A program made the translations under genes and the position numbers. Positions 5,542 through 58,146 of a stretch of DNA of 64,000 nucleotides are shown piece after piece. Under the pieces are notes generated by a model. That model did no database searches. It was not told the DNA's origin and was given only the letters and a program-made list of their open reading frames with translations. Each line of letters starts with the position of its first letter. Positions within the stretch are counted from its first letter, which is position 1. The stretch spans positions 64,769,953-64,833,952 of the forward strand of contig CM049311.1 in the NCBI GenBank assembly GCA_026874595.1, read 5' to 3'. The DNA comes from Sipunculus nudus (Eukaryota; Annelida; Sipuncula; Golfingiida; Sipunculidae).

Positions 5542-5797
5542 AAGGGTGTCCCCTATTAAAAACTTTTTCAAAAAGCTGAATTTTTCTTTGTTATGAATTC
5601 CCGTACTTTCAATCACATCAGTTGGAAGCATACACGTAAATTAGTTTACAAAGGATTTCCCAGCAATAAGTAAGAATTTAAAAATGGATAAGTTGCTATG
5701 TAGTGCAACTAGACTGTGCAGAAATGCACAATAAGTGCATACATATCAGCATATGGGCTTCCATATAAACTGTCCATAACTATAAAGCAAATAAATA

Positions 5798-5890
5798 ACA
5801 TTTTCCAAATAAATAAAAATAACTTTCTGTAGGCTGCATTTATATACTCTTTTGAAGGAGAATATTCAATAGAGAATATATAAATTATTA
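5798..5890. repeat. ~93-bp duplication, copy 2
   Basis: Direct copy of 5449-5541, about 349 bp downstream, with a few substitutions. Both copies lie inside the fold-back element core. Confidence 0.8.
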
Positions 5891-6804
5891 AATAATAAAA
5901 ATAAAAAAAAACTAACTTTAGTGGATTATTCTGTCGAATATAATAATACACTATGTTCAAATGTGTGCTTGACCACTATCATTGGTCTAAAAGTAGTCTA
6001 AATATAATTTACATTCTGTAAAGTATGGCCATAATTTTTATTTAATTTTTTTAATCCGATTAAGATAAAAAATCCGATTTAAAAAATAAATAAATAAATG
6101 CACTGGCTCATTGGGAAAGAAATATAGTGTATAGGAAGACTGCCAACCTGCCAATAAAATTTTATTTGAAAGTTGTATGTGGTAACCTGGTATTGGCAAT
6201 CATTCGCTTTTCACAGGATATAAGTAAAACAACTGAAAGTCCTCTATGTTACCATTATAGAACTTCTCTGATGTCAGCTAGACAGGTATCTTAGTCAAGA
6301 CATACGTAAATCATTGCCGATGAGCACCATAACAGCGTCAGGCGATTAATTGCGCCGTTTGCTGATCAGCGAAATAGCAGGTGATAGAAAGGTTCCATGC
6401 ATTATATGTAACACATTAAAAATGTATTCGTATGTTTGTAAATATGAAATAATTACAGAACATGTTTCTTTAAATCACACTTAATCACATAATAGTCGGA
6501 GGTTGTTATATTAGGGCTAATTTGCCTGCAATTAATGCTTGGATTGAAAGATTGCCGATCAGCGCAGCTGATCAGCGAAAGTCATTGGCAGGTACATTTG
6601 TTGCGGTTCATGGTGAATTATTCATACAATAAAAAATATATTTAAAAATACGTAATGCTGATAGAAAAGGTGTATTTAATCATGAAATAGTCGGAGGTTG
6701 CTATATGAGGGCTAATTAGTCTGAAATTAATGCTTTAAGTGAAAGGTCGCTGATCAGCGCGCTGATCAGCGTTACTGATTAACCTTGTTAAGATAATTTA
6801 GGTT

Positions 6805-11757: not shown

Positions 11758-12068
11758 TATCATTTTTTTTAAATTTTGGTTCATCCGAAATTATCATAAA
11801 AAATAGGCCTATGTGAAACATGGTTCTTCAAGGTGTATATATATGTTACAGGGGAGAAATATAATTTGTTTTATATGTCAATGAATACATATGAGATCTT
11901 TGTGTGTTTGACCAGGTGTACTCCTTGTACAATATTCAAGAAACATACTAGTATCCAGCACCCGGTATGTTTTCGCGTCACACCACACGGCATCCGGCAG
12001 AGATGTTTTTTTCAATAAAAGGTATACGTAATATTGAATACTACGCGGATCTAATGCAGCTGAACACA

Positions 12069-12406
12069 TTTTGGGTCGCCTGGTCCATTTTGTGGAAAAA
12101 GGTGATTTCTTTTCAGTAAACACCAAGATGTTATGACAGGGTGTTTGTAAACTAACTACAGCCCTGCCACAGGCCTGTCAATCACTCTGCCCCCAGCCAT
12201 CACCTGGGTCATTCAGCCAATTGCGAGGTGCAAGTGTTTAATTAATGCATGGGCCAAGTACCTCCGTGGCAAGAACTGACGGTCGACGTTTGATAGCCCA
12301 ATCTAATTAGCTGAGCATACAACCGATAAGCGTTGGAGAGCAACCCTCAACTCTAGCTAATTAGTGTGCAAACAAACCCATCCTTGTGAATGATCTGTTA
12401 GTGTCA
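12069..12406 (+). repeat. ~340-bp dispersed sequence, inverted relative to 24632-24889
   Basis: Landmarks TTTTGGGTCGCC, GGAAAAAGGTGATTT, TAATTAATGC, AGCCCAATCTAAT, GTTGGAGAG and GTGAATGATCTGTTAGTGTC all recur in the same order in the reverse complement of 24632-24889. It is unusually GC-balanced for this window. It could be an old non-autonomous transposon. Confidence 0.7.
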
Positions 12407-12407
12407 T

Positions 12408-12945: not shown

Positions 12946-14270
12946 TATATATATATATATACATTCATATATATAATTTATTACATGTTTGATCAAAATA
13001 TACGACATAACTGGTTTATTATGCGTTTTATTTTTCAGGGGGCCTACGCCGTGAACCTCCAGACCTTCGTGGACGCTGTTATTTGTTGATTGTTTAATTT
13101 GTTGCCATTTATAGATTCCATGTAAATAAACCTTCTTATAAGATAATCGGGCTCCTTCTGTGACTTGAATGTGTGTGAATGATGTATGAAAGTGACAAAC
13201 CACCGTCTTCCTATTCTTCCCTCCAATTAACAATAAGTCCAGATTTCACATATGACTTGTATGTGTATGCGAGATTTGTATGATCGTTATAAACTCGTCT
13301 CTATTGTCAACCCCTAAATACCTATAAAGGTTGTAAACCGTGATAAGTAAATCAATCTTCGTTCTCCTTGAATAACCATAAATCCCGCTCCCCTAGTTCC
13401 TGTGTAAACACGCGGTTACCTATTAGGCCCGGCGATGCACCTGTTCTGCCGCGGGTCCCAGTAGTCGGGTGCTAAGCGCACCTTGGCACTCGGCCAAAAC
13501 TGTAAGCTCCGCCTACTGAAGTCCATGCACGTGGTTTTTGACAAGTCGCTGGTGTGACAGGTCAAACTTTTATCGTTTTAATACGTTTTTAAAGCAAATA
13601 AGTAAATTAATCCATGTTATTATATCATGGTTTGATAGGAATCACCGTCTTGACCAAATTCATGTGACTGTCAACATGTAGTTGTGGTTAGTTACGTGTG
13701 TAGAACGAATGATCCTTACGAATATATTTTTTGGCCATTTTCTCGAAACATCATTTCACCTGAACACCTTATCTTTAGAGCGTTATTTCTCAGTAATCAC
13801 TCGTCCGAAACATACCATCTTTGAGATATATAATTGTTAATATGTCTTCTAAAAAGCGATTTTTATTTTACGCCTATACTAAATTTGAAGGATTTTATTA
13901 AGGTAAAAGTAAAAAATGAAATGATTTGTGAAGATTTCAAAATTAAATACTCTGTAAAATCGTAATTTATAACTTAACTCACTAAACAAAAAAAAAACGC
14001 CTGGGGATTATTATCTAAATTCTCGATTTATTTAAGAAGATTTTCTGTATCTGCTTTAGTTGTGCTGGAATAAACGATTTTTTGTTAAAAATTAAAATTA
14101 AATCAAAATTCTTACAAATTCAAACCTGTTCCTCGGAAACAAAGTTTATTATCACCAAACTATAGAGAATTTTCTTAGCTTTCAGAAAATGTATACTTTA
14201 GGGGGTATTAAAGCATTAGATTGTTCCATGCAAAGGAAAAACTGAAACAAAGTCAGGTCAGGTGGGGGGA
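12408..14270. other. intergenic, no gene recognised
   Basis: Contains (AT)n at 12909-12962 and a relatively GC-rich patch at 13420-13570. No frame shows a recognisable domain. Confidence 0.45.
12909..12962. repeat. (AT)n microsatellite
   Basis: Two AT arrays separated by a short ACACAC interruption. Confidence 0.9.
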
Positions 14271-14466
14271 CCAGTCGTGCCACCTTAAGGTAAGCTGGCC
14301 ACTACACAAGCTCTCTCCGGGTCGCCTCCGGCAAGGAATTTTTCAAATTATGCTGTAATATGTTATGATCCTGCTAACTCCTGCTCCTGCTCCATTATAT
14401 AGGGCGGTCGCCGAGGAATAAAATTATGCAATATGAGGTGAGAATTGACCAAGGGCACAAATATAT

Positions 14467-14903
14467 ACTGTGGTTGGCTTCATATTCGCGAGGCTGAAAT
14501 TTCGCGATTTCTCCATTTTTAATGTTTCGCGAGGGTGTCATTTTCGCTATCTTACCAGAACCTATATCAAATCTTTGGTAAGGCCATTGCTGTGTGTATT
14601 ATAATTTGAGAATAATTCATGAGCTTGTGATATTCTCCTCATATAAGGATGGGCCCGTACACACAGCACACATTCTTTAGTTCCAAATTAAGGGAATGTT
14701 TTCCCTATACCTGCATGGATGTAACTTATATTAAGATTTCTCACTGTTCTAACCTATTTCCATTCAAGGATTGGCTACACTTAATCAGAAGGACACACTC
14801 AATTGGCCAATTATTCCCGAGGGTGTCATTTTCGCGATTATTTCCCAATAGCGAATATCGCGAAATTAAAACCCTCGCGAACAAAAAGGCAACCACAGTA
14901 TTG
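14467..14903. mobile_element. ~437-bp MITE with TACTGTGGTTG inverted ends
   Basis: The left end reads TACTGTGGTTGGCTT, then TTCGCGAGG, then TTTCGCGAT. The right end in reverse complement reads TACTGTGGTTGCCTT, then TTCGCGAGG, then TTTCGCGAT. The inverted ends extend about 45 bp. A second internal pair (GAGGGTGTCATTTTCGC) occurs in direct orientation at about 14530 and 14819. No transposase is present. The target duplication is at most the dinucleotide TA. Confidence 0.75.
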
Positions 14904-14952
14904 ACATCTCCGGGTCTCTCCGGCCGGATCTCTCCGACTTTCAGTCACACCC

Positions 14953-15201
14953 CATGTTTAACCAGACGACAGGCTGTCTCTGAGTAGTCAGTTTGTTTCA
15001 GCCCCTCAAACGAAAAAGTATAATAATTAAGCCAACTAATTTTAATGTAAACCTGCTGTGGATAAATCAACTAAACAGACTAAATAGACTTTTTATGCTG
15101 ACATCATCCAGATTAAAGGTGAGAAGCTGTCAGTTTAAAAGTTAGTTCTAACTTTTTTGTTTGGGTATCGGAGTGTATGGATCTGTATACCACTACAAGG
15201 A
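14953..15201 (-). repeat. ~250-bp dispersed repeat, copy B
   Basis: Reverse complement of copy A at 2442-2691 with few differences (for example the AAACAAACAC/GTTTGTTTC junction differs slightly). Confidence 0.8.
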
Positions 15202-15719
15202 ACGTCAGCTTGTAGGCAGCTGGTAGGATATGTATACCGCTAATATGAAAGGTAAAACCAAAGCCAGGGTCAAATAGCCCTTGCACCCGAGCTCTCTTAC
15301 TACGCTACGCTGTGCAAGATCCTGGTTACCGCAGTTAGGGTCAAAGAGCATAGAAAATAATAGCCCGACACGTACGGACTCCATTTATCTTGACCATTGT
15401 TTACTATATATCAGCGCTGCAGACAGCTGCAACACGGCTGTTCACTGGTGAACATGACCGGAGGCGTGCAGGTACTTGTAGCACTACGCTGCAGACTGCA
15501 ACGAAGAAAATAAGTGACTCACTTGTGTCGACTGTCAGATTCGGTCCAACACCAACCTGCTTCATGAAAAAAAAAAAAAAATTGTCAGTCCACACGATGT
15601 TCCTAAACTGACGATATTAGGTCAACCATATCACCTGTGCACTTTGTCACACAAAATTAATACATGTACTCAATTGCATCGCAGGTGTACATGTAATTGC
15701 TGCCATCGGGCTGGACTTA

Positions 15720-15896
15720 ATACTGAAATACACCGAGTAACACCAAAATGCACCGAAAAAAACCCCACTGAAATACACCGAAATACACTGAAAAAACACC
15801 GAAATACACTGAAAAAATAATCATAACCACCAGTATATGTTTTCAAATAACATGATATATTATATATACATACCTTTTATTAAAAATATATATAAT

Positions 15897-15970
<74 letters not shown>

Positions 15971-16070
15971 ACACCTATACTATTGGTAATGAAAGTTATT
16001 TCAGTGTATTTTTCATTGTATTTTGGTGTTATTTCGGTATATTTTTTTTTGTTTTGTTTATTTTGGTGTT
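15720..16070. repeat. fold-back of CACCGAAA/CACTGAAA repeats around an (AT)n array
   Basis: 15720-15825 consists of repeated AATACACCGAA and AATACACTGAA units. 15995-16070 contains the complementary series (TTCAGTGTATTT, ATTTTGGTGTTATTTCGGT). A long TA/AT array at 15895-15967 lies in between. The arrangement could form a long hairpin. Confidence 0.65.
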
Positions 16071-16298
16071 ATATATTGAATTATTTATATATTTGCTAAC
16101 CCTGTTTATATAAATGCCTGTACATCTTGCTCTTTTTATTAAATGTCATTTTCATAGTTAATACCTATAACCATAGTATATCCGGAAGTATTTGCAGTCA
16201 TACCACCAGTCAAACCCACCAAAAAGTACACTGGAAATAGCACGAACAAATGGTTTGTAGATGTAGTATATATAATTATGATAATGATCATTATCAAG

Positions 16299-16303
<5 letters not shown>

Positions 16304-16344
<41 letters not shown>

Positions 16345-16496
16345 ATGTTTACACTAAATAGCACAAAAGAAATAACAGAATGTTGTTTAATAGAACTGAC
16401 CAAGGAAAAGTACTTTGATGAATCACTAAAAACCAAACATCCAACTAAGTCAAGAACACAAAAATATACACAACAAGTTGCTAAGACTAAACTATA

Positions 16497-16528
<32 letters not shown>
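16304..16528. repeat. two (GA)n microsatellites
   Basis: GA arrays at 16304-16343 and 16502-16528 flank about 160 bp of AT-rich DNA. The open frame spanning them in either direction is a repeat artefact. Confidence 0.9.
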
Positions 16529-16529
<1 letters not shown>

Positions 16530-16532
<3 letters not shown>

Positions 16533-17589
16533 CACTAAATTTGTCAAATTCAGTTCACTTCTCAGCATTTGTACTGTAAAAACAGATCTATTTGTGGAGT
16601 ATATTATGAAAATTGTAGAGCCAGTGGGCATGCATATCAATAGATCTACCGATAAGAAAAGTCTTGTTTCACTGAATGTTGTAGCTTTGATGCATGTTAT
16701 GCATAAGAAGACAATGCAGTATCACTCAAGTATCAGTCTCCTTCTCTTAAGTGTACGAGTCCTCTCTGACTGTATTATTATTGCTCAGATAGGGGTAAAA
16801 ACAAAATGGACATAGGCCTATTTCAAAACACCACATATAAAGAACACAGCAGAAAGGAAGCCTTGGTCAATTTTTTCATTCAGGTACAATTCAGATATCA
16901 GAGCAATTTTAACTTGAGTGTTTGTTGCTTGTTGCTCATATAAGTGTAAAAACGAACCGGACAATACAAAATCGGTGCATACATATATTTTAATGAACAC
17001 AACAGAAAGGAAGACTTGTTCAAACGTTTTATATTCATGCACAATTGCACATATGCACATCATATGTCACATATACTGCATCTGAGAAAGTATTTAAAAA
17101 AAATTATTAGTAACTACAACATGACTGCATATATCATTTACTAGTGAAACAAAATCAGATACCATTATAGGCCTACCGAATATATATTAATGGAATAAAA
17201 ATAATACTGATGGTAACAGAAAGACTATATCAAATTTCTTGGTGAACCTAGTTCAAATGTAAGTAGATTCAATTATCATATACTCAGTAAAACAAGAAAA
17301 AACTATAGTCCTCAACTTCGTGAGTAATATATACAATATAATTACAATGCCATGGCAATATAAAAATTGAATGATTTTTGCAGAATAGTACTGGAGCGAA
17401 CATTATTATACTTTCCATACATCTTGATGAAATGTATGTTAACAGTACTAAAAACTGTTACTTTCATATGCCAAATATTAATGAAAGTAAAATAAGATTA
17501 TGTATGTTGTAAAAATTACATACTGGCGATGACATGAGCAAAGTTAATTATCCAAATCAATTGCGTTGCATGTATATAAGGAGTCGCTG

Positions 17590-17590
<1 letters not shown>
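16530..17590. other. intergenic, no gene recognised
   Basis: AT-rich sequence. Two loosely similar segments near 16830-16930 and 16990-17060 share AACACAGCAGAAAGGAAG-like and ATTCATGCACAATT-like words. No domain is seen. Confidence 0.45.
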
Positions 17591-17630
<40 letters not shown>

Positions 17631-17655
17631 CACACACACACACACACATATATAT
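17591..17655. repeat. (AT)n(CA)n microsatellite
   Basis: A pure AT array is followed directly by a CA array and a short second AT tract. It marks the 3' side of the transposase remnant at 17694. Confidence 0.9.
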
Positions 17656-17693
17656 AATTTTAAAATCATGTCCATATCATTATGAGCGATTAC

Positions 17694-18757
17694 CTCGGAG
17701 CTGTGTGCTCGTCTGATACGTTTGCGTTGACTGACGCTACTTTTGGGATGCAGTAATTTTCTTTTGTAGTCTTGATTGTAGCTGGTGCCTGCTTGTTTGA
17801 TATTGACCGCAATAACCTTCTGAAGTGGCGAACTTTATCATCTTCTGACATGCAACGCTATTTGTTATTGGCTGTGAAGAACTTCTGAAAACGTGCGTCC
17901 AGCACAGTCACCAAGTCTATTGAGGCATCTGCGTTGATTTAGCATTTGTATAGCTTCACTTCAGCATGCATTGACTCTATTAGATCCGGCAATCTCTGCG
18001 ACTTCCATTCAACTGCCAATTTCATTTGATGGTTAAACGACTCAGAGTTGTTATTTGCCCATAGTTTTTTGTTGGTATCTCTGTTGTGCGGCTTGTTGAC
18101 GTGCCCCAAAAGGAATGGTTTTAGTTTTTTTTTCTCTGAAGTAATGAACAAATGTTGGGTACTGTTGACATGAACTTTCTAGTCTTAATGCTCTTTCTTC
18201 GAAAGTGAAGGTATCATTTGCAGAGGCAGTCCCCTCGGCGCCAAATATGTCCAATACGATCTCAACCCATCCCTTGCTATTTGCGCCGACTTTTTCCTGG
18301 AGGTAGCGCCCTACATTGTCTTTCAAATGCTTTGTGCAAAGATATCTGGTGGATCCAGGGAATACACTGTCTATGGCGTTCGTGATTGCTATTTCCTCGT
18401 CACTGCCTATTCGAAGTTCCGTTGCTCTGATATTGGTGTCTAGTTTCAGTTTGATGTGTGACAGGAAGGATTGGCAAGTATAATATGAACCGTCCCAGTG
18501 CTAGTACATTGGTCCCATCATGACAGTGTTCTCCTTTGTATCGCTCCGCAAAACCCTTAGGTTTTTGTATACCAGCAAAGTCACATAACATGCTCCCAGA
18601 TTGAACGTACGATCTATCCCTACTACGTGATCGGAACACGATTGAATGAATGAACGTAAGTCAGCCATTTGTTCTTCCAGGTAAAGTATAATACAAGGCG
18701 ACTTGCCTTTGGAATGAACTATCTCTTGCACAAATGGATGGTCGTTAAGCATGCTGA
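17694..18757 (-). pseudogene. Mutator-like (MULE) transposase core, decayed
   Basis: Read on the minus strand from 18757, the frame starts MLNDHPFVQEIV and runs through VVGIDRTFNLGACYV (first catalytic Asp, about 18612-18614). It then hits a TAG stop after GPMY and continues in the same frame with HWDGSYYTCQSFLSH, ELRIGSDEEIAITNAI (second Asp) and YLCTKHLKDNVGRYL. A shift within a poly-A run after YFREK changes frame to LKPFLLGHVNK and WANNNSESFNHQMK (third acidic residue). Two further stops (after LYKC and after TANNK) precede a tail ending EHTAPR. The order DRTF, SDEE, H, NSESFN is the MULE D-D-E transposase pattern. The stops and the frameshift mean it cannot encode a working enzyme. The N-terminal parts of the same protein lie at 21880-23750. 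Confidence 0.8.
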
Positions 18758-19974
18758 ATATGTGGGGATATATATATAAAAAAAGGGGGGGGGGGCATGT
18801 TAGAATATATGTATCGAAATCGATTTACTCTTCACAGAATTGATTTTTATTTGTTTAATATTTGTTCAATTCCTGGATTTACGTTCTGACGCGGATTCCA
18901 CAAGAAGAGAATAGACGGAATAAAATTCCTATATGTTTAATATGCGTTCTTAAAAAAAATAGATGTGGTCGGACAATGGTCCTCGGAGGGCCCCGCGTTT
19001 CTGCTTGTGCTGGACTTCTTTACATATGGGTGAAAAATTAAGTTAAATTTGAAAAAATATGACAAACATAAACACGTTTTTATCCATATGCATGAGGGAA
19101 AATATCCTACTGGATCAAATGATATTATAGTCCGCCACTTACGGACTCCATTTATCTGTGATATGGAGTCCGACCGTCAAGCGGTGAGAGTTCACCCTGC
19201 CGTACATGGAGGGATCTGTAACATGAATTACCACTGCTTGTTGTGTGATAGAGAATTAATCTTGTATTTATATATAGTAATAAACTTTTAATGTATCAAA
19301 TTAAATCGATATATCACCCTTATGTGCGCCTGTAAATGTTTTTTTTTCCTTTGAACTGCCGGGGTTCAGTTGTTGCATCCCAACTGGACACCGCCGGAAA
19401 AGGAATCCCATGCAAATTAGGTGGGCAATCTATGCAAAAGATGAATTCAGGGGGGCTTTTCCCAGGAATGCCAGTGCCGTGCACTTGGATAGACCATATT
19501 TTCATAAAAATCTTTCCCATTATACATCGCGTGTTGTCAATGATGCTAATTTCCTATTGGCTGTTCCAACTTGAAGGCTCCAAGCGGCCCGACGGAGACG
19601 AAGTAATATCTGACTTCATTAAGAGTAAGTGCCCATACTTTATTACATACTGATCATTCAGCAAAAGTTTTTGTCCAAACGAAGTCTAAGCATCTGTAAC
19701 AATTATAATATGTGGGGTTTGTTTGGTGTCCTCACGCTTCACAAGGCATATGCGTGTCTGAGGGTTTGTACGGATCCGTACAAACTTGGATAGTATAGAC
19801 TCTCCCCGCCAGAGGCTGCATCGCTTGTATTGTTTACTATATATGTCAGCGCTGCAAGACTGCAGCAAATGATTTTAAAGAATATATGTCTGAAATAATG
19901 TGTGCAATAGAAAAACACCGAAAGTTGTCTGTTATCCATATTTGATTTTAAGCAAGTCTTCAATTCAATAGGTC

Positions 19975-20785
19975 TGGAGTTCCCATAGGCACCAATGATC
20001 CCTGTGAAATAGGGAAAGCTGCAGTAGGTTGTTGTTGAGTTATCGCGTGCGAAAGAAAATCAGCGATCGGGCTGTGGCGACCATATTGGAAGTCCAACAG
20101 GTCTGTAATTCAATAGGTCTGGAGCCATCATATGTACCAACAACCATCCCTGTAAATTTGGTGAAGCTGCAGGAGGTTGTTGTTGAGTTATCGCGCGCAA
20201 AAGTAAATCAGCGATCAGGCTATGGCGGCCATTTTGGAAATCCGACAGGTCTGTAATTCGATAGGTCTAGAGCCCGCATAGGTACCAATCATCCCTGTGT
20301 ATTTGGGAAAGCTGCAGTATGTTGTTGTTGAGTTATCGCGCGCGAAAGAAAATGAGCGATTGAGCTGTGGCGGCCACATTAGAATTCCGACATGTCTGTA
20401 ATTCGATACGTCTGGAGCCCTCATAAGTACCAATCATCCCTGTGAATTTCGGAAAGCTGCAGTATGTTGTTGTTGAGTTAATTGCGTGCAAAAGAAAATC
20501 AGCAATAGGGGTGTGGCCGCCATATTAGAACTCCAACAGGTCTGCAATTCAATAAGTCTTGAGTTCCCATAGGTACCAATCATCCCTGTGAATTTGGGAA
20601 AGCTGCAGGAGGTTGTTGTTAATTGCGTGCGAAAGAAAATCAGCAATTGGGCTGTGGTCGCCATATTGGAATTCCGACATGTCTGTTATTCGATAGGTCT
20701 GGATCCCTCATAGGTGTTAATCATCCCTGTGAATTTGGGAAAGCTGCAGTATGTTGTTGTTGAGTTATCGCGTGCGAAAGAAATT
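19975..20785 (+). repeat. six-copy ~145-bp tandem repeat
   Basis: The motif GTTGTTGTTGAGTTATCGCG, or a variant, recurs near 20027, 20176, 20323, 20468, 20611 and 20754, so the period is 143-149 bp. Each unit also carries AATTCGATAGGTCTGGAG and AATCATCCCTGTGAATTTGG variants. The array runs directly into the GGACGG terminus at 20790, as in other composite elements in this window. Confidence 0.85.
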
Positions 20786-20789
20786 GTCA

Positions 20790-20883
20790 ATGATGGAAGG
20801 ACGGAAGTACGGAAGGACGGACATACGGACGGGCTGACACGGTGATCACTATAGGGAACCGCTTGTCAAGCGGGGCCCTTATA
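20790..20883 (+). repeat. GGACGG terminus, related to 1600-1682
   Basis: Same module order as 1600-1682: GGAAGGACGGAAGTACGG, GCTGACACGGTGATCACTAT, then CGCTTGTCAAGCGGGGCCCT. The last module contains the perfect palindrome CGCTTGTCAAGCG, apart from its centre. Confidence 0.7.
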
Positions 20884-21879
20884 AATAGCGGTTACAAAAC
20901 GAGATGCGGTTACTATACAAAAACATACATAAAGTCATCAGTAAAAAATTAAATAAATAAATAAATAAATACACATTGAATAAATCCCTGTATCAACAGT
21001 ATAGGTTACAACTCGCTATAATTTGACAAGTAGATAGGTGATGTTCACAAAAGACATTTCACTTACTTAGGTGCACCGAGGTAATTGAGCTCAATAAATA
21101 TTTCGAAATTGTTCAGAGAACATACAATCAGCACTTCGACAGCAGAGCGTCTTTTCATTGTCTGTATCTCTGCCGAATGTAACGGTTGATCCTGGTCAGG
21201 CTGTTGCAGTGATGTACTTTGAATATGAAAGTTTGTTGGATATGAATGTTCATAAAAAAATCCAGGTACACTTGTGATGAACTCCTGGTACTTGCATGTG
21301 AGATGAATGCGAATTCCCTAACAGGAAATATTTGTGGTTGCTGAAGCGAATGTTCTCAACAAATCCATATGCACCATACGAACATGTGCTAATAAATGCG
21401 AACTTTGTGCTCTTTTACAGAAGCTCAATACGTCCCGAGTAGTTCGTGTACTGTGGTAACTTGTCGAAGAAAATGTATGTGGACTGTATGCATGGTCATT
21501 TTACTGAAGTTCTGCACTGGTGATAGAACAAACCACATGACTCAAAACTGAGCATTTTCTAGAGCTGTAGAGATTTTAAAGAAACATAACGTAATATAAG
21601 GAGTCCTTTTTTCTCAGCTCTTTGATTGCGTGTGTCTCTCAAGAAAACCTGTGGACTTGTGTGGCATGACTGGATGGTTTACCCTTGTCTCAAAGGAAAC
21701 TACCAGGGCGTAGAACCGGCTTAATTGATACATTGTAACACATGACCAATACAAATGCGAATGTTTTGCTGGCAAACTACAGAGTGAATTACGCATGCTA
21801 AAAAATAACAGCCCAGCACACGAATGGCGGCCGGCAAAACACTTAATTGTTTATACATCATAAATAATAGTAGCGTCCG

Positions 21880-22640
21880 CTACAAATACTTGCAGCTTGT
21901 CATTGGCGATATTTTTTTCTGGTGCATGTCCGTTCTTTTGTCGCTTGATTTTGCGACCCACACCTGCTTCATATTACGTGGAAGACTCAAGCTGTTGTCG
22001 GCTTCGTCCAGCAACCGTTTGTATGCCTTTTTGGGGAGGCTCTTTGGCTGCTGCTGACTTGATTTTGTCAATGACGTCTGGGTTCGTCCGAATATATGGG
22101 TTGGCTTGACCTTTAGTATTCCCCTGAGGTACAGTTGATGGTCCTTGATTCCCTATATATTCGTATAATGCAACAGCTGGTCTCTGGGCGTAATTTTCTG
22201 AAATTTCGAGCCATGTCTCTCTATTCTTGAACGAGGTATTTGATGCTAAACAGGTATAATACCAGTGCATTCTGTCAGAACCAGGCTGTGGGTCTAGTGG
22301 CACCCAGGTGATCTTCTTGTTGTTTTCTTACGTGTACAGTACAGGCCATCCTTTAAGCTCACTGTTTTGAGGTTAATCCCTGATGTTAACACAAAATGTG
22401 TACTGGTCGTAGTGCCCTTCGTGCCTGTCCAAGCACCACAATCGTCTGGAAAATTCATCCTCTGTTGAGCGTGGTATTTCTTTACATGTTTTGAGTTATC
22501 TATGACATACCGCGAGACTTGATACCAGGTGGAAGTTTTGACGCTGGTTTCCTTTTCCTGCGGCGTCCAATACAGTCTGTAATATTTCCTCTGCCGTTAA
22601 AGGGATCAGAGTAGTCTTTTTGAAATATTGGTGGCGGTAA
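21880..22640 (-). pseudogene. Mutator-like element protein, N-terminal/linker part
   Basis: Minus-strand frames carry NPYIRTNPDVIDKIKSAAAK (about 22050-22110). A frameshift then leads into KKAYKRLLDEADNSLSLPRN and MKQVWVAKSS (about 21950-22030). Upstream are DRMHWYYTCLAS and NRETWLEISENYAQRPAVAL, and a segment like KHVKKYHAQQRMNFPDDC with a GLYCTRKK end. An (I/V)RTNP...NxKQV arrangement ahead of a MULE transposase is, from memory, typical of invertebrate Mutator-like proteins. It belongs in the same gene as the core at 17694-18757. At least one frameshift and several stops are present. Confidence 0.55.
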
Positions 22641-23480
22641 CTACATCTCCGCTCTGCGGTCCTTCATGGTAGGAGCTGTTACTGACATCAGCAAGTTTGC
22701 ACAAGGCTGGTCTTTTTCAGGTGTTGACTTTCCACGAGACAAATCATTGTACGAATTGTAGCTGAGATCAGCATATTGGTTTACCACAGGCTGGTCTCTT
22801 TGTGGGGTTGAATGTTCGCAAGGCAAGTCAAACGGTATATCCGAAAAAATTGAAATCGCCGTTCACTACCAACGGTGAAACAGGTGGAATAGAAACTCTG
22901 AATGGAGATGGTATTTCGATGATGGATACAAAGTGATTCGGCGACAATATTTTCTAATTTCTGGGGTCTAGACCTAATTGTGACCACATAAGTTTGACAG
23001 GTTCATCACTGGTGGGACTTTCTGGCAAGTAGCCTTTCTTCAAGTCCCTGTGGACAATGTCATCTGTTCCACTGACGGGCGGGTAGAATACTTCTCGGGA
23101 AAGGAATCATATTTGCAAAAGCTCGAATGGTCCAGACAGAGGAATAACCTCCTTCCGTGCAGCAATCTTTTAAAGCATCATCATATTTCGGAGGAAAGCA
23201 TGAAATATCCCAACCACGGTTATATTTGTAACTCTGTATATTTCTCGGCCATTTCAACCGCACAGCGAACACGGAGTTCTGTTGCTGTAGTCCCATTTCC
23301 TGTCAAGTAAACCGAGGTCGCATTGAACAAACAATTTCCATCCCCTGATACGGAAATCGGCTCTCCAGGTACTTGGTATCCAAATGCACTGCATCTTGAA
23401 ACGATTGCTCTAGTATCCTGGTCAGGATACAGTTAAGGACGGATGAGTACATCTGCTTGGAAAGAATATTTGTTGTTAAG
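22641..23480 (-). pseudogene. OTU/vertnin-like domain, decayed
   Basis: On the minus strand one frame encodes RCSAFGYQVPGEPISVSGDG and continues NCLFNATSVYLTGNG and TATELRVRCAVEMAEKY, before a stop near 23230. The GDGNCLFNA string (about 23322-23352) is the OTU-type cysteine protease signature holding Asp and nucleophile Cys. Frameshifted continuations carry RGWDISCFPPKYDDALKDCC and FYPPVSGTDDIVHRD...KLMWSQLGL (about 22965-23095), which resemble vertnin-like invertebrate proteins. The tail to 22641 contains two imperfect copies of a STP(Q/E)(R/K)DQPxxN segment. Function, if any, was probably deubiquitinase-like. This copy has stops and frameshifts and cannot be functional. Confidence 0.65.
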
Positions 23481-23484
23481 CATA

Positions 23485-23755
23485 ATGCTATCTACTTTGG
23501 CCCGAGAATTCAAAGCTGGCAACTCTCTGCGGGTAACCTTATGTAGGCGCTTGAGACTTCTTTTAAAGTCAAACTGGCCACCATCGCCACGAGAGCATCA
23601 GCGGCAATAATATGCTGCAGATTCAGCTGATAATTCCTCCAGCTTCTAATCGGTGTGTCCTTCGCACTTCGCATGAAACCACTGGATGCATTGTTTGCGA
23701 TGAACCGTTTATTCCTGGCAGTTCTGGTTGCAAGTGCTGCAAGGCCATTCTATTT
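23485..23755 (-). pseudogene. PHD-finger-like zinc-binding segment, decayed
   Basis: Minus-strand reading gives WPCSTCNQNC, a TAA stop, then KQCIQWFHAKCEG, a TAG stop, then LEELSAESAAYYCR, a TGA stop, then CSRGDGGQFDFKRSLKRLHK and VTRRELPALNSRAKVDSIML. The C-x2-C, CIQW(F)HxxC and YYCxxC spacing is that of a PHD finger. Three in-frame stops show decay. The segment leads directly into the OTU/vertnin-like part. Confidence 0.6.
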
Positions 23756-23899
23756 GCTGAGGGCGATTACGCTTCTGTGCATGTTATGTATATACTACAA
23801 AATCACACTGGTATGCTGCACAGACATTTCGGCAGAGATTATATAGCCTAATGGATGTGGTTGTATCATTTTATAATTTGCAGTCCTGAAGTAATTCAT

Positions 23900-24630
23900 G
23901 GCCGTACTACGCTGCTACGGTACCTAAAGGCATCGCTGTTGACTGTAGTACATGGCAACAGGTTAACAATTCTTGTCTGACCCATGTAAAGCTACCATTA
24001 AAATAACCCGAGTTATTTTTGTTATTTACCATCAGATATAAGTATTGCAATTAAGCCATTGGTAACCAAAGAGCAATCAACGAGAACGATTGGGGTGGGG
24101 GTGGGGGGATGGACGCCACTTTCTTCTTACGCCCCCATTCTAACACCCCCGTTTGCTGACCATCTCTCTCTTTTGGATTATAACCTCCGCTAGGGGGGAA
24201 GGCGTTCACTTTTGATACATTCACATCGTAATAACACTGGACAGAAAAACAGCAGCTGACAATAGGGCGTTCAGTTGATCAAATTACTAAAGCCATTAGA
24301 TGTCGGGTTAGGGTTTTACTTCATTCGTACTGGTTGAGATACAGTCATCTGACGATTCATCATTACCACCGATCAATTTCCTCACTGAAGATTGTTCGGC
24401 CGGGATATAAGCATACATTTGTTTCTACATGGCGGCTACCATAATGCATTAGAAAAGACGTGGTTCCTTTCAAAATTTAAAAGTTAAGGCCATGAATCCA
24501 ATAATCAAAAATAGCTGCCATAATGCAATGTAATGAATTGGCTCCTATAAAAAATTCAAAGGTAAGGCCACGAATAACAAATGGAAAGGTTTTGCACTTT
24601 TTGCAACATTTTGTTAAGCCACCTGACTAT
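23900..24630. other. intergenic, no gene recognised
   Basis: Unremarkable mixed sequence with G-rich (GGGGTGGGGGTGGGG) and C-rich patches near 24090-24150. Confidence 0.4.
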
Positions 24631-24631
24631 A

Positions 24632-24889
24632 TGACACCAACAGATCATTCACAAGGAAGTATGCGTTTGCACACTTATTAGCTTGAGTTGGGGTTACTCT
24701 CCAACAATCAGTTGCATGCTTGTTATTAGATTGGGCTTCACACCTCTGGCCGCCCTGTGGACAGATTTGACCTAAGCATTAATTACTCCCTTGCACCGCG
24801 CTATTGGCCCAGTTCAAGGCTGGAGGTAGAGTGATTCACAGGCAGGAGAAATCACCTTTTCCAGCAAAATGTAACTGGCGACCCAAAAA
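24632..24889 (-). repeat. dispersed sequence, inverted copy of 12069-12406
   Basis: The reverse complement matches the landmarks of 12069-12406 throughout, with small deletions. Confidence 0.7.
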
Positions 24890-25396
24890 GTGCTAATGTG
24901 CATAAGATAGACAAAATATTAAATACTGAGTACATTTTTTATTGCAAAAACATTTTTTTCATGAATTTAGCTAGTTCTGCTTCTTAAAATTAAACAAATG
25001 ACTTTTTTGATTAAGTATCAATCTAAATACTTCGTTATGAATAATGAGTAATTAACTTCTCAACGAATGACGCCCTAGCACCGTTGAATATATATAAAAC
25101 AGGGGCAACTGCAAAAGTATGAATATAAACGCATACTATTTTATTCTTTTGTTCTCGCAATAACATTAATGAGTCATTTTTTGTTGTTAACTTAAGTATG
25201 AAGTGACATGTCCAGTATAGAATCATTGTCCCCTGCTTTGTTGCACAATGCTGATATTTCCTCTGTATCAAAGTATAATTAGAATAAATTTTATACATGA
25301 GATTCATCAAATACATAATATTATGCCTAATAATAATTTTTCTATTTTCAAATCATACTTAAACCACTGCATCACTATTCAACTGATGAACTTTAG

Positions 25397-25450
25397 ACTC
25401 ATTCAAAGAGAAATATAAATCATAATAAGTCAAGTAGGCGTATTCCATCT
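25397..25450. repeat. 54-bp direct repeat, copy 1
   Basis: GACTCATTCAAAGAGAAATA and the following ATCATAATAAGTCAAGTAGG recur at 26807-26862, about 1.41 kb away. The two copies bracket an otherwise unassigned segment. Confidence 0.8.
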
Positions 25451-26142
25451 CCGCCCGACAAATCCTTTGAACCATCACGCCCCACCCTGCACAATTTTGT
25501 TTATATTTTTACCATCATGCGCCGTACAGAAACACAAGATATCCCACTCTTTTCAAATTTATCAACAAAGATTGGGATCTTAAAAATATCATTTAAAAAT
25601 CAAACCCAGGTTTTGTGATTCACGAAAAGATTATAACATTACATTTACTGCGAGGTTTGCTGCTTATGTATGGGTTATCCGGTTTTTTTAAGTGTTTGGA
25701 AAAATATATGTATTGAAAAAAATTATGTGGAATAATAGCAGAAAAAAACCTACAATTTCATTCATTTTTCATGATATTTTAATAAATGGACCGGTCCGCT
25801 CGCCCGGTCAACCTACTGGACCGGACCGCCATAGCTGTACCAAAAAAAGGGGTCAGATTATGTGATCCGCACCTAAGTACTAGGTATTACTCGATGTGTT
25901 TGGTTTTTCAGGTTGTTTGGAAACTTACCTGACGTTGCACCCGTGTAGTTCCCTCGTCCCCTTGTCTATTTACATCATGGCAAAACGTTTCCCTTGGGTG
26001 TTCAGACGAACCATATTCAGGGACACGTCTGCTCAATGATCTAAAAACGGCCGTTGTATAATGAACTACTCTCCCTTAACATCACTGCAGGGTGAGAGCA
26101 CCTAGGGCACCAAAATCGAGTTATTTAGAGTATTTTGTTGAA

Positions 26143-26281
26143 ACTGTAAATTCAAAACAGTCTGTTTCACGGGATGCGACCCGATCATCAGGTGAATACG
26201 GTTAGAATCTAACCACATTCTAACCACATTCACCAGATGATCGGGTCACATCCCGTGAAACAGACTGTTGTGAATTTACAG
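26143..26281. repeat. near-perfect 139-bp hairpin
   Basis: The left arm (ACTGTAAATTCAAAACAGTC ... GGTTAGAAT) and the right arm (ATTCTAACC ... GTGAATTTACAGT) are reverse complements over about 65 bp, with few mismatches and almost no loop. It could be a very short MITE or a cruciform-forming sequence. Confidence 0.85.
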
Positions 26282-26806
26282 TGTTGTTTTCCTGGGCTAG
26301 TCTTTAAGCCATAGAGCACTTTACAACGGAGGGTAACTCTACCTTCTATATAAATATATATTTATCTAGAAACTATGCAGGTTCTTACAAATCTTCGACA
26401 AGCACCTCCTATATTCCTATGTCAGCATTTTTTCCAATGACAACTTTTCCAATGACAGATCAGTTAGAAGGATGTGAAAAATTAAGGGAAAAATAAATTA
26501 ATGTTTCATTTGGGACATGTAACATTTCTGTAAACCAGGAAAATTATTCAATGATTGCACGCCTGCACTCCTTCAAGCCATGAAATTGACCGCATTCTCT
26601 TCATAAACGGATCGTCGGACCTGGTACCTCTGTTTTTCCTCCAGTAGGCCTACTAACGCAAACAAAGATTAGTCATAACCGAAACTAGTAAATCATAAAA
26701 CGAATTAATTCATGAGTAAAAACAGATAGAAAACATTTATGTGCTACATATGGTAAATCTTGTCTTTCCGTGTAATACTGACACAATCCAGCTTAAAGAA
26801 ATTTAT

Positions 26807-26862
26807 GACTCATTTAAAGAGAAATATAAATCATAATAAGTCAAGTAGGCGTATTCAATACA
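26807..26862. repeat. 54-bp direct repeat, copy 2
   Basis: Matches 25397-25450 with only one or two substitutions. Confidence 0.8.
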
Positions 26863-27129
26863 TGCGTTCACATTGTATATTCAACTCAATGTTGAATCTT
26901 TAAGAGCCCTCCCATGTGATTTGAAAGTGAAACATATACGAGTCGTTATCACATACAATTTAACCACATTCGGAATACACTTTGGCAATAGTGCTATATA
27001 TATAACGTATGTAAAATCTTCATTAGATCTTAATCAAACTCACACTCAGGATTTATAACATACAATCTGTGTGGCTTCTTTCAGATGATGCTTGTCTAGG
27101 TTACATTTTCGTAATATTTGTTGTGCATG

Positions 27130-27134
27130 TTTTT

Positions 27135-27173
<39 letters not shown>

Positions 27174-28625
27174 TACAGCATTTCTAAATTGCCCTATAAT
27201 ATTCTAAAGCATGCTCTATTTTTTAAATTAAATTAAGCTTGTTTAAAAAGATAACTTTTAAAGTGTTCTTAAAAGCGAAAAATAAGAGGTCATCGCTGAT
27301 GTTTTGTGACTAGAAAGTCCTTTCCATAATATGGGAGATGCAGTTCTAAAGGATCTGTTTCCATATGTAATTGTCCTTGACTTGGAACTTGTAACTTGCA
27401 TAAGAGGCTTATCTTAGAGCTCGTGCTGGTTTCCTACCTCTCGACTAGTTCATCGATATACGCTTGTGCAAGTGCAGGTAGGGATTTAAAGGTATAATTA
27501 AACCTTATATTGCAACCCACATTCCACGGGTAACCCATGAAGGCCAATAAGGACAGGCGTTTTGCGATCTCATCGTTTGGTTTCTGTGACAAGTCGGGCT
27601 GTTGTATTTTTCATGCGCTGGAGCCTGTTATTTAATTATTTTGGTATTCTATTTAACAGTATATTTGGATAATCAAGTCTAGAAATTGCTATAGGTTGAA
27701 ATAAAGTTCTGTTCAGTGTGTCATATATTGTCTTATCTTTCGTATTTTGCGTACCATATGGTAGCAGGATCTTGTTACCCCATTCACCTGTTTTAGGGTG
27801 ACAAATTATAAATTCAAATATTCTTGACTTAGCATTAACATATTGGATCTCACTAAACTTTTTTTTTACTTCTGGAACACAAGCAGCAAGTTTGAATTGT
27901 ATAGAACCCAGTCGACCATTGGTTTAATGACCATATAAACCTGGTTGTCTTCGGCGTAAATATGATGGCGCATATCATGCTTTTAGTATTTATATCGAAC
28001 TGGCTTTGTGTAGATGCAGTATAACTTTGGCATAAGCACTGACCCCTTTGGCACACCAAAATATATGGCTGAGTCACTGAAAGTAGTGCTACCAACGTCC
28101 ACACATTGCGCTCTGTTTACTTAATATGATTGTAACCACTTAAAGGCGCAGGAATTTGTGCCAAAGGAGTGTTGAAGACACTGAAGTAAGATACTGTGAT
28201 CTAAAGTATCAAATGCTGCTGATAGGTCCAGTATCATTAGTACAGCAATGAAACCCCAATCTATACCTCAATGATGTCTGTCTGAACTTTAAGAAAGGCA
28301 GCCTCAGTTGAATGGCCCCTCTTAAATGCTGACTGATATTTATAATTAAGTTCATTCCTGGTTAGGAGAACATCGAGGCCCCTAGACACAACCCTCCCAA
28401 GGATTTTAGATATCAATGGTAGGTTAGAATCAAGTCTATTTTTTCAGGCTTTCACTGTCCAAGCTCGGCCTTTTATTTAACGGCATAACAACTGCTTTCT
28501 TATAGTTGACTTGAACATCCGATGTTACACAAGATGTATTAATAATGGATGTTATGGTCGGCAAGAGTTCATCAACACACTGTTTTAGAAGGCACGTTGG
28601 GACAGGATTAAGCTCACACTTTTTG
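27130..28625 (-). mobile_element. LINE (CR1/L2-like) reverse transcriptase remnant with (TTA)n tail
   Basis: The minus strand encodes NPVPTCLLKQCVDELLPTIT and VNYKKAVVMPLNKRPSLDSE (28450-28620). These are followed by ILDLSAAFDTLDHSILLQCL (about 28170-28235), FGVPKGSVL and HIYAEDNQVYMV (about 27950), and a C-terminal stretch TYGNRSFRTASPILWKGLSS. These are motif A, motif B, the motif C box and the conserved C-terminus of a non-LTR reverse transcriptase. The catalytic YADD appears as YAED. Several stops and frameshifts interrupt it. The plus-strand AAT array at 27134-27173 is a TTA tail at the element's 3' end, as in several CR1/L2-type lineages. The endonuclease domain is missing, consistent with 5' truncation. 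Confidence 0.8.
27134..27173. repeat. (AAT)n microsatellite, LINE tail
   Basis: About 13 AAT units at the 3' boundary of the minus-strand LINE. Confidence 0.9.
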
Positions 28626-30085: not shown

Positions 30086-30289
30086 ATGATGATGTCACAT
30101 ATTCCTGTGGTAGATTTTAAAGAATATGGTCTTGTTCACCAGTCAGCTGAAAAGGCCAGGCTCAACACGAAGGCCTTTTGTGGAATATCGAAAGAACTGA
30201 TGGGCGCGTTCCAGACTGAAGGCTTTGCCTATCTGAAGAACACTGGCATACCAACAGAGCAGGTAAAATTATATTTGCTATCTCAGCTG

Positions 30290-46772: not shown

Positions 46773-48840
46773 TTTTTAGCTCAGCTGACTGTAAGTCATC
46801 TGAGCTATAGCGATCACTCTTTGTCCGTCGTCCGTCTGGCTGTCCGTTAACCAGGCACAAATTGTAACCACTGGACCAAGAATCTTGTAACTTGATATTC
46901 TGAGAAGTCAATAAAAAATTCCTTGGAAATCAGAAATTAGGTCTCTGTTACCCATATTCATTGAGCTATGGGGCCCATAGTACCCCCAAGAGTAGTCAAA
47001 AATTTCATACAAAAACTTCAATATCTCATTAACTACATCACTGTTGGTCATGATTTTTGGCATACATATTGATCATGGGATGTTCCATCAGTTCCTGCAG
47101 ACTGGTGGTACCAACTGTATTTCTCGATTTTTTACGATTTTTTTTTCTCTATTTTTGAGACCTTTAAAAATGTGAACATCTATTAACAGGGCACAAATCG
47201 TAAAGACTGGACCTAGAATCTTCATTCTTGACACACTGAGAGACCCTATGAAAAGCCTCCATGGAAACCAGAAATTAGGTCTCTGTTACCCATATCCTTC
47301 AAGCTATGGGGCCCCAAAGTAACCCCCGGAATAGTAAAAAAAATAATACAAAAACTTCAATATCTCATTAATTACATCACTGATGGTAATGATTTCTGGC
47401 ATACATATTGATCATGGGATGTTTCATCAGTTTCTGCAGACTGGTGGCGCTACCTGTATTTTTCGATTCTTTACGAATTGTTATCTCTATTTTTGAGACC
47501 TTTAAAAATGTGAACATCTGTTTACAGGGCACAAATCGTAAAGACTAGACCTAGAATCTTCATTCTTGACACACAGGGAGACCCATGAAAAGTCTCCATG
47601 GAAACCTGGAATTAGGTCTCTGTTACGCGTATCCTTTAATGTGTATGGCTCCAAAATACCCCCAAGAATAATGAAAAATTTGATACAAAAACTGCAGTAT
47701 CTCAATAACTACAACACTGATAGTCATGATTTTTGGCATACATATTAATCATGAGGTGTTCCATCAGTTTTTGCAGACTGGGTGCGCCACCTCTATTTTT
47801 TCAAATTTTTACGAATTTTTTTCTCTGTTTTTGAGACCTTTAAAGATGTGGTTATCTGTAATCATGGTACAAATCGTAACAACTGGACCTAGAATCCTCA
47901 TTCTTGTCATGCAACCTGAAATTAGGTCTCTGTATCCCATATCCTTCAAGCTAAAGGACTCCGAAGTATCCCTCAGAATATAGACAAATTGAAACAAAAG
48001 CTGAAGTATCTGAACAACTAATGCAGAGATCACTATGATTCTTTGCATGGATATTGATTATGGAGTGTTTCATCAGTTTCTGCAGTCTGGTGGTGCCACC
48101 TTTATTTTAATCAATTTTTCGAATTTGTTTCTCTATTTTTGAAACCTTTAAGGATGCTGTCATCTGTTAATGTGGTACAAATTGTAACAACTGGACCTAG
48201 AATCTTCATTCTTGTCATGCAAGGAGGCCCATGAAAAGCGTCTGTGGAAACCTGAAATTAGGTCTCTGTTACCCATATCCTTCAAGCTATAGGACTCCGA
48301 AGTATCCCACAGAATAATGGAAATTTGATACAAAAGCCGAAGTATCAGAACAACTAATGCAGAGATCACCATGATTCTTTGCATGGATATTGACCATTAA
48401 GTGTTTTTATTAGTTTCTGCAGAATGGTGGAGTGACCTATATTTTCTTAAGTTTACGCATTTTTTCTCTATTTTTGATATACATATAAATACAGACACAA
48501 TTTTTGCCTGTTGATTAATCTGTATGGTGCTTCAGTTGAATGGGTATATACTACCATTCAGATGATAAAATTTCCTTTTGCGAATCTCTTCCCAGTCAGC
48601 TGAGCGTCATGACCAATGGGTCACTTGTTATTATAAATGCCATGACACCAACAACACAGCCTGTTGGCATACGCGATCGTTCCACTGACAGAACAAAGTC
48701 ATTTTGCTCGAGATTTGTCTCGAGTCCTTTCATCAGCTCATGTTTGTTGTTTCTTTGAGCTCAGCAGACTGTTAGTAATCTGAGCTATAGCGATCACCCT
48801 TTGTCCATCGTCCGACCGGGCCTTTAACAGGGCAAAAATC
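46773..48840 (+). mobile_element. tandem-repeat element with AGCTCAGCTGA/GTCCGTCG termini
   Basis: It starts TTTTTAGCTCAGCTGACTGT, then CATCTGAGCTATAGCGATCA, then TTTGTCCGTCGTCCGTC. Five copies of a ~310-340-bp unit follow, marked by GCACAAATCGTAAAGACTGG or variants near 46856, 47190, 47528, 47866 and 48174. At 48757-48840 the same terminus module appears again in the same orientation. It has no coding capacity, so it is a non-autonomous composite element. Relatives lie at 11300-11757 (minus) and 54460-55083 (minus). Confidence 0.75.
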
Positions 48841-52067: not shown

Positions 52068-52243
52068 TCACCGTTTTCTGTAGTAAAACCTTTGGACCAC
52101 ATTAGCGGCCACCCCTAGGACGGCTGTTAAAACAGCCACGGACAGAACAGGATACACCCAGCCGGCCACTTGACAGTCTGACTGCTCTGAGGTTTGTGCC
52201 TGGGGTGAGCCGCTTGTATCATTACAGCCAGGGTCCTTCAGGA
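52068..52243 (-). CDS. receptor exon: juxtamembrane and transmembrane segment
   Basis: Reads VLKDPGCNDTSGSPQAQTSE, then VAGWVYPVLSVAVLTAVLG and VAANVV followed by QRFYYRKR and TGA. A hydrophobic stretch followed by a basic cluster is a typical type I stop-transfer sequence. The TGA overlaps a perfect donor (G|GTGAGA), so splicing into further tail exons is possible. Confidence 0.7.

Positions 52244-58099: not shown

Positions 58100-58146
<47 letters not shown>

Follow-up and report, generated by a model that had tools for sequence, protein, structure and literature searches.

The locus described here lies in a 64,000-nucleotide stretch of the Sipunculus nudus genome (assembly GCA_026874595.1, contig CM049311.1; G000:C6:64769953-64833952 in our coordinates), which is referred to as the window. 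Its minus strand carries the decayed gene of a Mutator-like element (MULE). An initial annotation of the sequence had described a PHD finger, an OTU domain, a linker and a MULE transposase core in this transcriptional order on one strand, and all of the named motifs were found in that order on the minus strand. The parts of the element were as follows; L046 is a complete relative in the same genome.

17690..23849, minus strand: decayed PHD-OTU-MULE transposon gene, later insertion included (blastn to L046 and translation)
23223..23762, minus strand: PHD and N-terminal half of OTU in a single reading frame (180 codons, 4 stops)
23595..23741, minus strand: PHD finger (Pfam PF00628, phmmer to Pygopus 1, alignment to L046/L020)
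22927..23345, minus strand: OTU cysteine-protease-like domain from GDGNC (Cys) to NHFV (His), frameshifted (PF02338 and motifs)
21885..22926, minus strand: linker, or N-terminal part of the MULE transposase (DDCGAW, YAQRP, YIRTNP, MKQVW), retained in relatives
18759..21884, no strand assigned: 3.1-kb insertion missing from L046, with TATT at both junctions (blastn to L046)
19962..20783, no strand assigned: 145-bp tandem array of 5.7 copies within the insertion
17690..18758, minus strand: MULE DDE core and C-terminus (DRTF, SDEE, CTKHLK, NNNSESFNH; PF10551 and motifs)

Three blocks of blastn homology joined the two copies: window positions 23849-21885 matched L046 3704-5559 (69% identity), 18758-18450 matched 5558-5866 (75%), and 18221-17732 matched 5933-6409 (71%). 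Homology reached its upstream limit at 23849, and the stop codon ending the translation was located at 17690-17692. Alignment to L046 and L020 showed that the window PHD retains seven of the eight zinc ligands of the C4HC3 pattern and contains three internal stop codons. The MULE core is interrupted by a stop at 18501-18503 and shifts frame near 18060. Lesions counted by eye numbered 15 from the PHD to the linker and 4 in the MULE core, which is not a difference (p 0.23). The copy had been annotated as dead, and the stops, the frameshifts and the 3.1-kb insertion, which are probably what killed it, bear this out.

The insertion divides about 3 kb of coding sequence. We prefer to read the 3.1-kb stretch as an insertion because L046 is contiguous there and TATT is present at both window junctions. 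An intron between the linker and the core was also considered; the stretch has intron-like ends in the window, but the same two observations led us to reject this candidate. Since positions 18759-21884 are a later insertion, the element is not giant, as it had been called: three complete relatives measured 5.6 kb (L020), 6.0 kb (L046) and 6.1 kb (L012) between the ends of their terminal inverted repeats (TIRs), and the window copy is stretched by the insertion. Neither a TIR nor a target-site duplication (TSD) of the window copy was found, and a joint scan for both gave no hits. The best inverted match at the copy reached 26.8 bits, where the highest score among 20 shuffles was 25.4; it is a 65%-identical stretch and was not accepted as a TIR. 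The L046 TIRs matched window positions 13000-28000 over at most 19 bp.

Motif, profile and coding evidence in the window

The motifs were placed by three-frame reading of the minus strand at the following positions.

23658-23681, minus strand: WFHAKCEG, PHD motif
23325-23345, minus strand: GDGNCLF, OTU motif
22927-22938, minus strand: NHFV, OTU motif
22178-22192, minus strand: YAQRP, linker motif
21958-21972, minus strand: MKQVW, linker motif
18603-18614, minus strand: DRTF, MULE core motif
18393-18404, minus strand: SDEE, MULE core motif
18321-18338, minus strand: CTKHLK, MULE core motif
18029-18055, minus strand: NNNSESFNH, MULE core motif

As a chance control, 60 first-order Markov sequences equal in length to the real one were scanned. 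The patterns WFH..C[ED]G, GDGNCLF, CTKHLK, NNN.E.FNH and MKQVW did not occur in any of them. Weaker patterns arose by chance, with means per sequence of 15.0 for NH[FYVIA][VIL], 0.55 for DRTF, 0.52 for Y.QRP and 0.2 for SDEE.

Pfam searches of the window were made on read-through pieces, of which the OTU piece contains X. All three domains named in the annotation were matched, OTU above its cut-off (PF02338, E 4.1e-5, 24.5 bits against 23.3), and PHD (PF00628, E 0.0068, model positions 1-47 of 47) and MULE (PF10551, E 1.5e-4, model positions 3-99 of 99) below theirs. Among solved structures compared by sequence with phmmer, the best match of the window PHD was Pygopus 1 (E 2.2e-4), and the MLL PHD (E 8.4e-4) ranked after further Pygopus entries. 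The read-through OTU gave no significant match to solved structures; designed TPR proteins (E 0.08 and 0.15) were followed by A20 (E 0.58).

A frameshift-tolerant coding score over 17-25 kb was 61 for the minus strand and 11.8 for the plus strand, compared with 0.4-17.2 for 12 other 8-kb strand blocks; the 145-bp tandem array contributes part of the minus-strand score. AlphaFold models made without an alignment were unusable (mean predicted local distance difference test scores of 39.1 and 34.5). Three window pieces had no match in PHROGs at E 0.1, and no Rfam match was found in the window.

Relatives in the genome and linkage of the domains

The assembly of the window (1.43 Gb, 153 contigs) was searched for relatives. 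The Pfam MULE search gave at least 131 matches, with 150 of 252 first-look candidates scored, and the search with the L012 protein gave at least 64, with 50 of 321 candidates scored. Altogether 28 distinct relatives were compared by tblastn at E 0.01 (32 loci, four of them second views of one place). A PHD was detected in 11, an OTU in 16, and PHD, OTU and MULE in order in nine; two had a PHD without an OTU. The linker was conserved among the relatives (tblastn, LNK). Scans of the viral contigs and genome contigs collections found no relative.

The element L020 contains PHD, OTU, linker and MULE within one stop-free frame of 1007 amino acids (aa). Both OTU (E 6.7e-6) and PHD (E 2e-5) exceeded their Pfam cut-offs in this protein, and the transposase was matched by PF10551 (E 6.6e-5, below cut-off) and PF00872 (2.6e-4). 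An inverted alignment of its ends spans 340 columns with 97.9% identity; about ten of these columns are flank, leaving a TIR of about 330 bp, and a perfect 8-bp TSD, GTTATAGC, is present on both sides. Thus, an intact relative carrying all of the modules exists in the same genome, as the initial annotation had supposed. L029 is a broken copy of L020 with 98% identity. L046, which is close in sequence to the window copy (69-75% nucleotide identity) and is itself broken, has TIRs of 123 bp at 93.5% and a perfect 9-bp TSD, GATATAAAG. A simple count would put the chance of an 8- or 9-bp match, over the range of shifts tried, at about one in a thousand. TIRs and target duplications, the latter anticipated at 9-10 bp, are therefore present in relatives, with duplications of 9 bp in L046 and 8 bp in L020, and were not found for the window copy.

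The third complete relative, L012, was among five loci chosen for long open frames and contains OTU, linker and MULE in a stop-free frame of 903 aa. An upstream exon on the same strand (MVRKR...) encodes a PHD with 8/8 ligands and, as judged by eye, joins this frame in phase over a predicted GT-AG intron (GTAAGC...TTTTTAG). The 6.1-kb element is bounded by inverted repeats of 145 columns at 94% and 121 columns at 92%. OTU is thus encoded together with the MULE transposase in single frames of both L020 and L012. A C4HC3 PHD with 8/8 ligands and no stop was present in L020, L026, L029, L036, L046 and L012, and not in L019, L034 or L037. The OTU Cys and His were both retained in L020, L019, L046 and L012. 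PF02338 was above cut-off in the window read-through, L020 and P0003, and PF10551 was above cut-off in L030 (E 6.5e-7).

The linkage of the domains was examined with the window PHD-OTU as the query, which gave 33 matches in the genome, window included, with all 58 candidates scored. Sixteen places, window included, were continuous (query start at or before 6, end at or after 173). At 11 of these, the window among them, a MULE-side match from the L012-protein search was located downstream on the same strand. Inspection of the remaining five revealed linker and MULE at L049, a MULE C-terminal piece at L050 and a linker only at L051. MULE sequence therefore lies downstream on the same strand at 13 of the 16 continuous places (12 of 15 without the window). 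Five of the 17 shorter matches had a MULE-side match when compared with the L012-protein match list only. The pattern of separate, unlinked genes, which the initial annotation had named as the mark of a chance adjacency, was not what we found. Together with the single frame of L020, these results indicate that a single transposon protein comprises PHD, OTU and MULE.

Several derivatives lack part of the set. L030 and L031 (G000:C1 and C10) are 99.3% identical over 4.36 kb; either a segment was duplicated or a derivative with an internal deletion multiplied. The absence of the OTU from their frames suggests that this domain either can be dispensed with or is provided in trans. At L050:1-1329 (plus strand), PHD-OTU is fused to the C-terminus of MULE in an open frame of 443 aa that lacks the DDE core; its product might be a repressor or a new host gene.

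Two further groups of MULE sequences came to light in the searches. Of the at least 131 Pfam MULE matches, 43 form a young-looking family on many contigs, each with a stop-free frame of 607 aa and mostly with identical scores. Another long MULE protein is encoded at L009:3181-6924 and L010:3830-6871 (both plus strand), with open frames of 1248 and 1014 aa. The Pfam matches in L009 are to MULE, to CG-1 (E 4.8e-4, below cut-off) and, at the C-terminus, to a PHD. By eye, this protein also has a stretch resembling a Ulp1 cysteine protease, for which Pfam reported nothing at E 0.01.

Selection on the domains and interpretation

Selection was estimated by Nei-Gojobori counts from few sequences. Over PHD-OTU (176 codons), the ratio of nonsynonymous to synonymous substitution rates (dN/dS) of the window against L036 or L046 was 0.17. 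Against L036 and L046, it was 0.13 for the PHD (57 codons) and 0.13 for the OTU (48 codons), and the window against L034 gave 0.20. Because most dS values were saturated, only the proportions of nonsynonymous (pN) and synonymous (pS) differences are quoted between subfamilies. For PHD-OTU, these were 0.20-0.38 and 0.75-0.87 (saturated), respectively, with L026 against L046 at 0.20 and 0.82. For the MULE core, pN was 0.13-0.33 and pS 0.81-0.95 when L012 and the recent pair L036-L034 were excluded; pairs with L012 had pN of 0.43-0.46, and comparisons involving the window MULE contain a short out-of-frame tail that raises pN. The recent pair L036-L034 gave a dN/dS of 0.24 over MULE. We read these values as long-term selection on PHD and OTU together with the core, with copies decaying after insertion; the recent pairs alone are insufficient to show it.

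We conclude with high confidence that the locus is a dead animal Mutator-like transposon in which PHD, OTU, linker and DDE MULE core are fused in one transposase. The assignment to MULEs is based on the DDE domain (window, L020 and L030) and on the TIRs and TSDs, in the 8-11-bp range, of the relatives.

Several observations weigh against this reading. Neither PHD nor OTU was detected in 10 of the 28 relatives, which is weak evidence because most have only 1.5-kb flanks. At L052 and L053, PHD-OTU has no linker or MULE within about 3.5 kb. In the 524-aa open frames of L030 and L031, part of the PHD is followed by the linker, and the OTU is absent. The OTU signature itself varies: L026 lacks the His, L029 has GEWNC instead of GDGNC, and L019 and L026 have GNGNC. 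The window, L020 and P0003 all scored below the Pfam cut-off for MULE, and the TSD of L012 could not be read owing to the CCCCATCGGACC-like array that forms one flank. No constraint on PHD-OTU was seen in recent pairs (dN/dS for L026-L019, 0.75; L036-L046, 0.84; L036-L034, 1.99), and the L046-L034 differences in PHD-OTU were replacement changes only, with few changes in all of these pairs. Deubiquitinase activity and histone binding are predicted functions, and transposon OTU domains had, as of 2022, never been assayed, according to the part of PMC9741609 consulted.

We also weighed whether a MULE had captured host PHD and OTU exons, which would then be passengers without a job. MULEs are prone to picking up host gene fragments, as stated in the consulted part of PMC6446971, and the predicted intron between PHD and OTU in L012, the open OTU-less frames of L030/L031 and the unconstrained PHD-OTU of recent copy pairs, with their few changes, would all fit such a capture. 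However, each of the two domains shares its frame with the transposase, PHD, OTU and MULE are collinear across divergent subfamilies, and pN between subfamilies remains at 0.20-0.38 where silent sites are saturated. The dN/dS values below 1 for PHD and OTU, although from few sequences, also point against capture, and we consider it improbable. The initial annotation had suggested that the two domains could be a host-interaction cargo. Since they are in frame with the transposase and under purifying selection, they look like parts of the enzyme, and the term cargo is not retained.

Retention of the open copies by the host as domesticated genes is less probable still. The frames of 903 (L012), 1007 (L020), 524 (L030/L031) and 443 aa (L050) and the loss of the DDE core in L050 are compatible with domestication, but both L020 and L046 have the TIRs and target duplications of complete transposons, L012 has long TIRs, and the 98%-identical broken copy of L020 is what a recently mobile family would leave. 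The idea that a PHD-OTU gene remnant simply neighbors an unrelated MULE, for which the 3.1 kb between linker and core in the window and the lack of MULE sequence within about 3.5 kb at L052 and L053 could be cited, can be dismissed with near certainty, given the intact single frame of L020, the ordered PHD-OTU-MULE arrangement in relatives, the MULE sequence at 13/16 PHD-OTU places (12/15 without the window) and the absence of the 3.1-kb stretch from L046.

For the fused transposase that we favor, the most likely mechanism would be the following. The DDE core would cut and paste the element between its TIRs, leaving 8-9-bp duplications. The PHD, which by sequence is nearest to the Pygopus/MLL fingers, would anchor the complex on histone H3 tails, and this anchoring would bias the complex to accessible chromatin. 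The OTU signature includes the catalytic Cys and His (DGNC and NHF motifs), and its deubiquitinase function is putative. The domain would strip ubiquitin from the transposase, or from chromatin or repair proteins at the cut site, which would shield the complex from degradation or ease repair. These roles of PHD and OTU in transposition are offered tentatively. It is possible, though we would not favor it at even odds, that the H3-reading PHD and the deubiquitinating OTU constitute a chromatin-engagement module in which both are needed for efficient transposition, and that the N-terminal PHD-OTU arose independently of the PHD-plus-Ulp1 in Ginger and other Mutator transposases. Now that a structurally complete element is available in which one open frame holds all of the modules and both accessory domains show signs of purifying selection, the substrate of the OTU and the targeting by the PHD become testable, and the natural OTU-less (L030/L031) and DDE-less (L050) derivatives provide ready comparisons.

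Other features were observed elsewhere in the window. Exon-like pieces at 52092-60061 (minus strand) matched C-type lectin and SRCR above cut-off and EGF-like below it; with a possible membrane helix seen by eye, they perhaps belong to one animal receptor gene. Gene fragments of these kinds fit an animal host. An exon-like match to DIOX_N of non-haem dioxygenases was found at 30104-30268 (plus strand; E 6.4e-4, below cut-off). Tandem arrays occupy 46920-48222, where the units measure about 338/309 bp, and 56761-57547, where they measure about 303 bp. A near-perfect hairpin lies at 26143-26282 (66-nt arms, 92% complementary, 8-nt loop), and a dispersed repeat of about 320-400 bp occurs in two copies in opposite orientation, at 24631-24950 and 12007-12407.

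Comparison with known systems

OTU-MULE proteins are common in invertebrate databases. In the name MuDR-6_HM, we take HM to denote Hydra magnipapillata. This element belongs to MULE group 14 (Cnidaria), and its single open reading frame (ORF) encodes a MULE transposase with 'Ovarian Tumour Gene' (OTU) (Dupeyron et al. 2019, PMC6446971 Table 1). The combination of OTU with MULE is shared with L020 and L012; here and below, elements are compared by description, within the sections of each source consulted. No zinc finger and no TIR are given for MuDR-6_HM in those sections of PMC6446971. Table 1 of the same paper lists MULE-Mollusca (group 19) as an animal MULE with one ORF, with no PHD or OTU given. 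Rehavkus, a MULE outgroup hosted by arthropods and annelids, has a PHD in its transposase, a 9-bp TSD, TIRs of 26-400 bp and a minisatellite before the 3' TIR (PMC6446971). The transposase PHD, the 9-bp TSD and the TIRs resemble those described here, whereas no OTU is given for Rehavkus. In the present family, the PHD is N-terminal, and the repeat block of L046, which is CT-rich, lies 5' of its gene; no array is listed before the 3' TIR of this element.

A search of open-licence PubMed Central papers, with Repbase outside its scope, found no published case of PHD, OTU and MULE in one protein. Neither OTU nor PHD was matched as a word in a 2026 arthropod MULE survey (PMC13359780), in papers on a clam genome (PMC8905726) and a bivalve transposon (PMC10294476), or in an article dealing with transcription factors derived from transposons (PMC10027918). 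A hit for "OTU" in PMC6875170 was rejected, as the term there means operational taxonomic unit.

Outside MULEs, Ginger1 encodes a DDE transposase with OTU, Ulp1 or, in one family, Ulp1 and PHD (Bao et al. 2010, PMC2836005), and a figure legend in that paper names a Ulp1/PHD alignment of Mutator transposases. Ginger1 differs in its Gypsy-integrase-like core, its C-terminal extra domains, its PHD paired with Ulp1 rather than OTU and its 4-bp TSD; in the family of the window and L020, PHD and OTU are both N-terminal to the MULE core. According to Bao et al. (PMC2836005), a possible role of Ulp1 and OTU domains is the activation of repair factors during transposition. Helitrons carry deubiquitinase-type domains of the VTD and OTU kinds, and Helitron-encoded VTD deubiquitinases are active in vitro (PMC9741609). 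The same study suggests that deubiquitinases protect transposition proteins from proteasomal degradation. Helitrons are rolling-circle elements without a DDE transposase, and no PHD is named for them in the consulted part of that study. In several kinds of DNA transposon, the enzyme is accompanied by a domain resembling a ubiquitin or SUMO protease, namely OTU, Ulp1 or VTD (PMC2836005, PMC9741609, as far as consulted). An OTU in a MULE and a PHD in Rehavkus, Ginger and Mutator proteins were already known, and the union of all three domains in one MULE protein, which we did not find in print, is apparently new.

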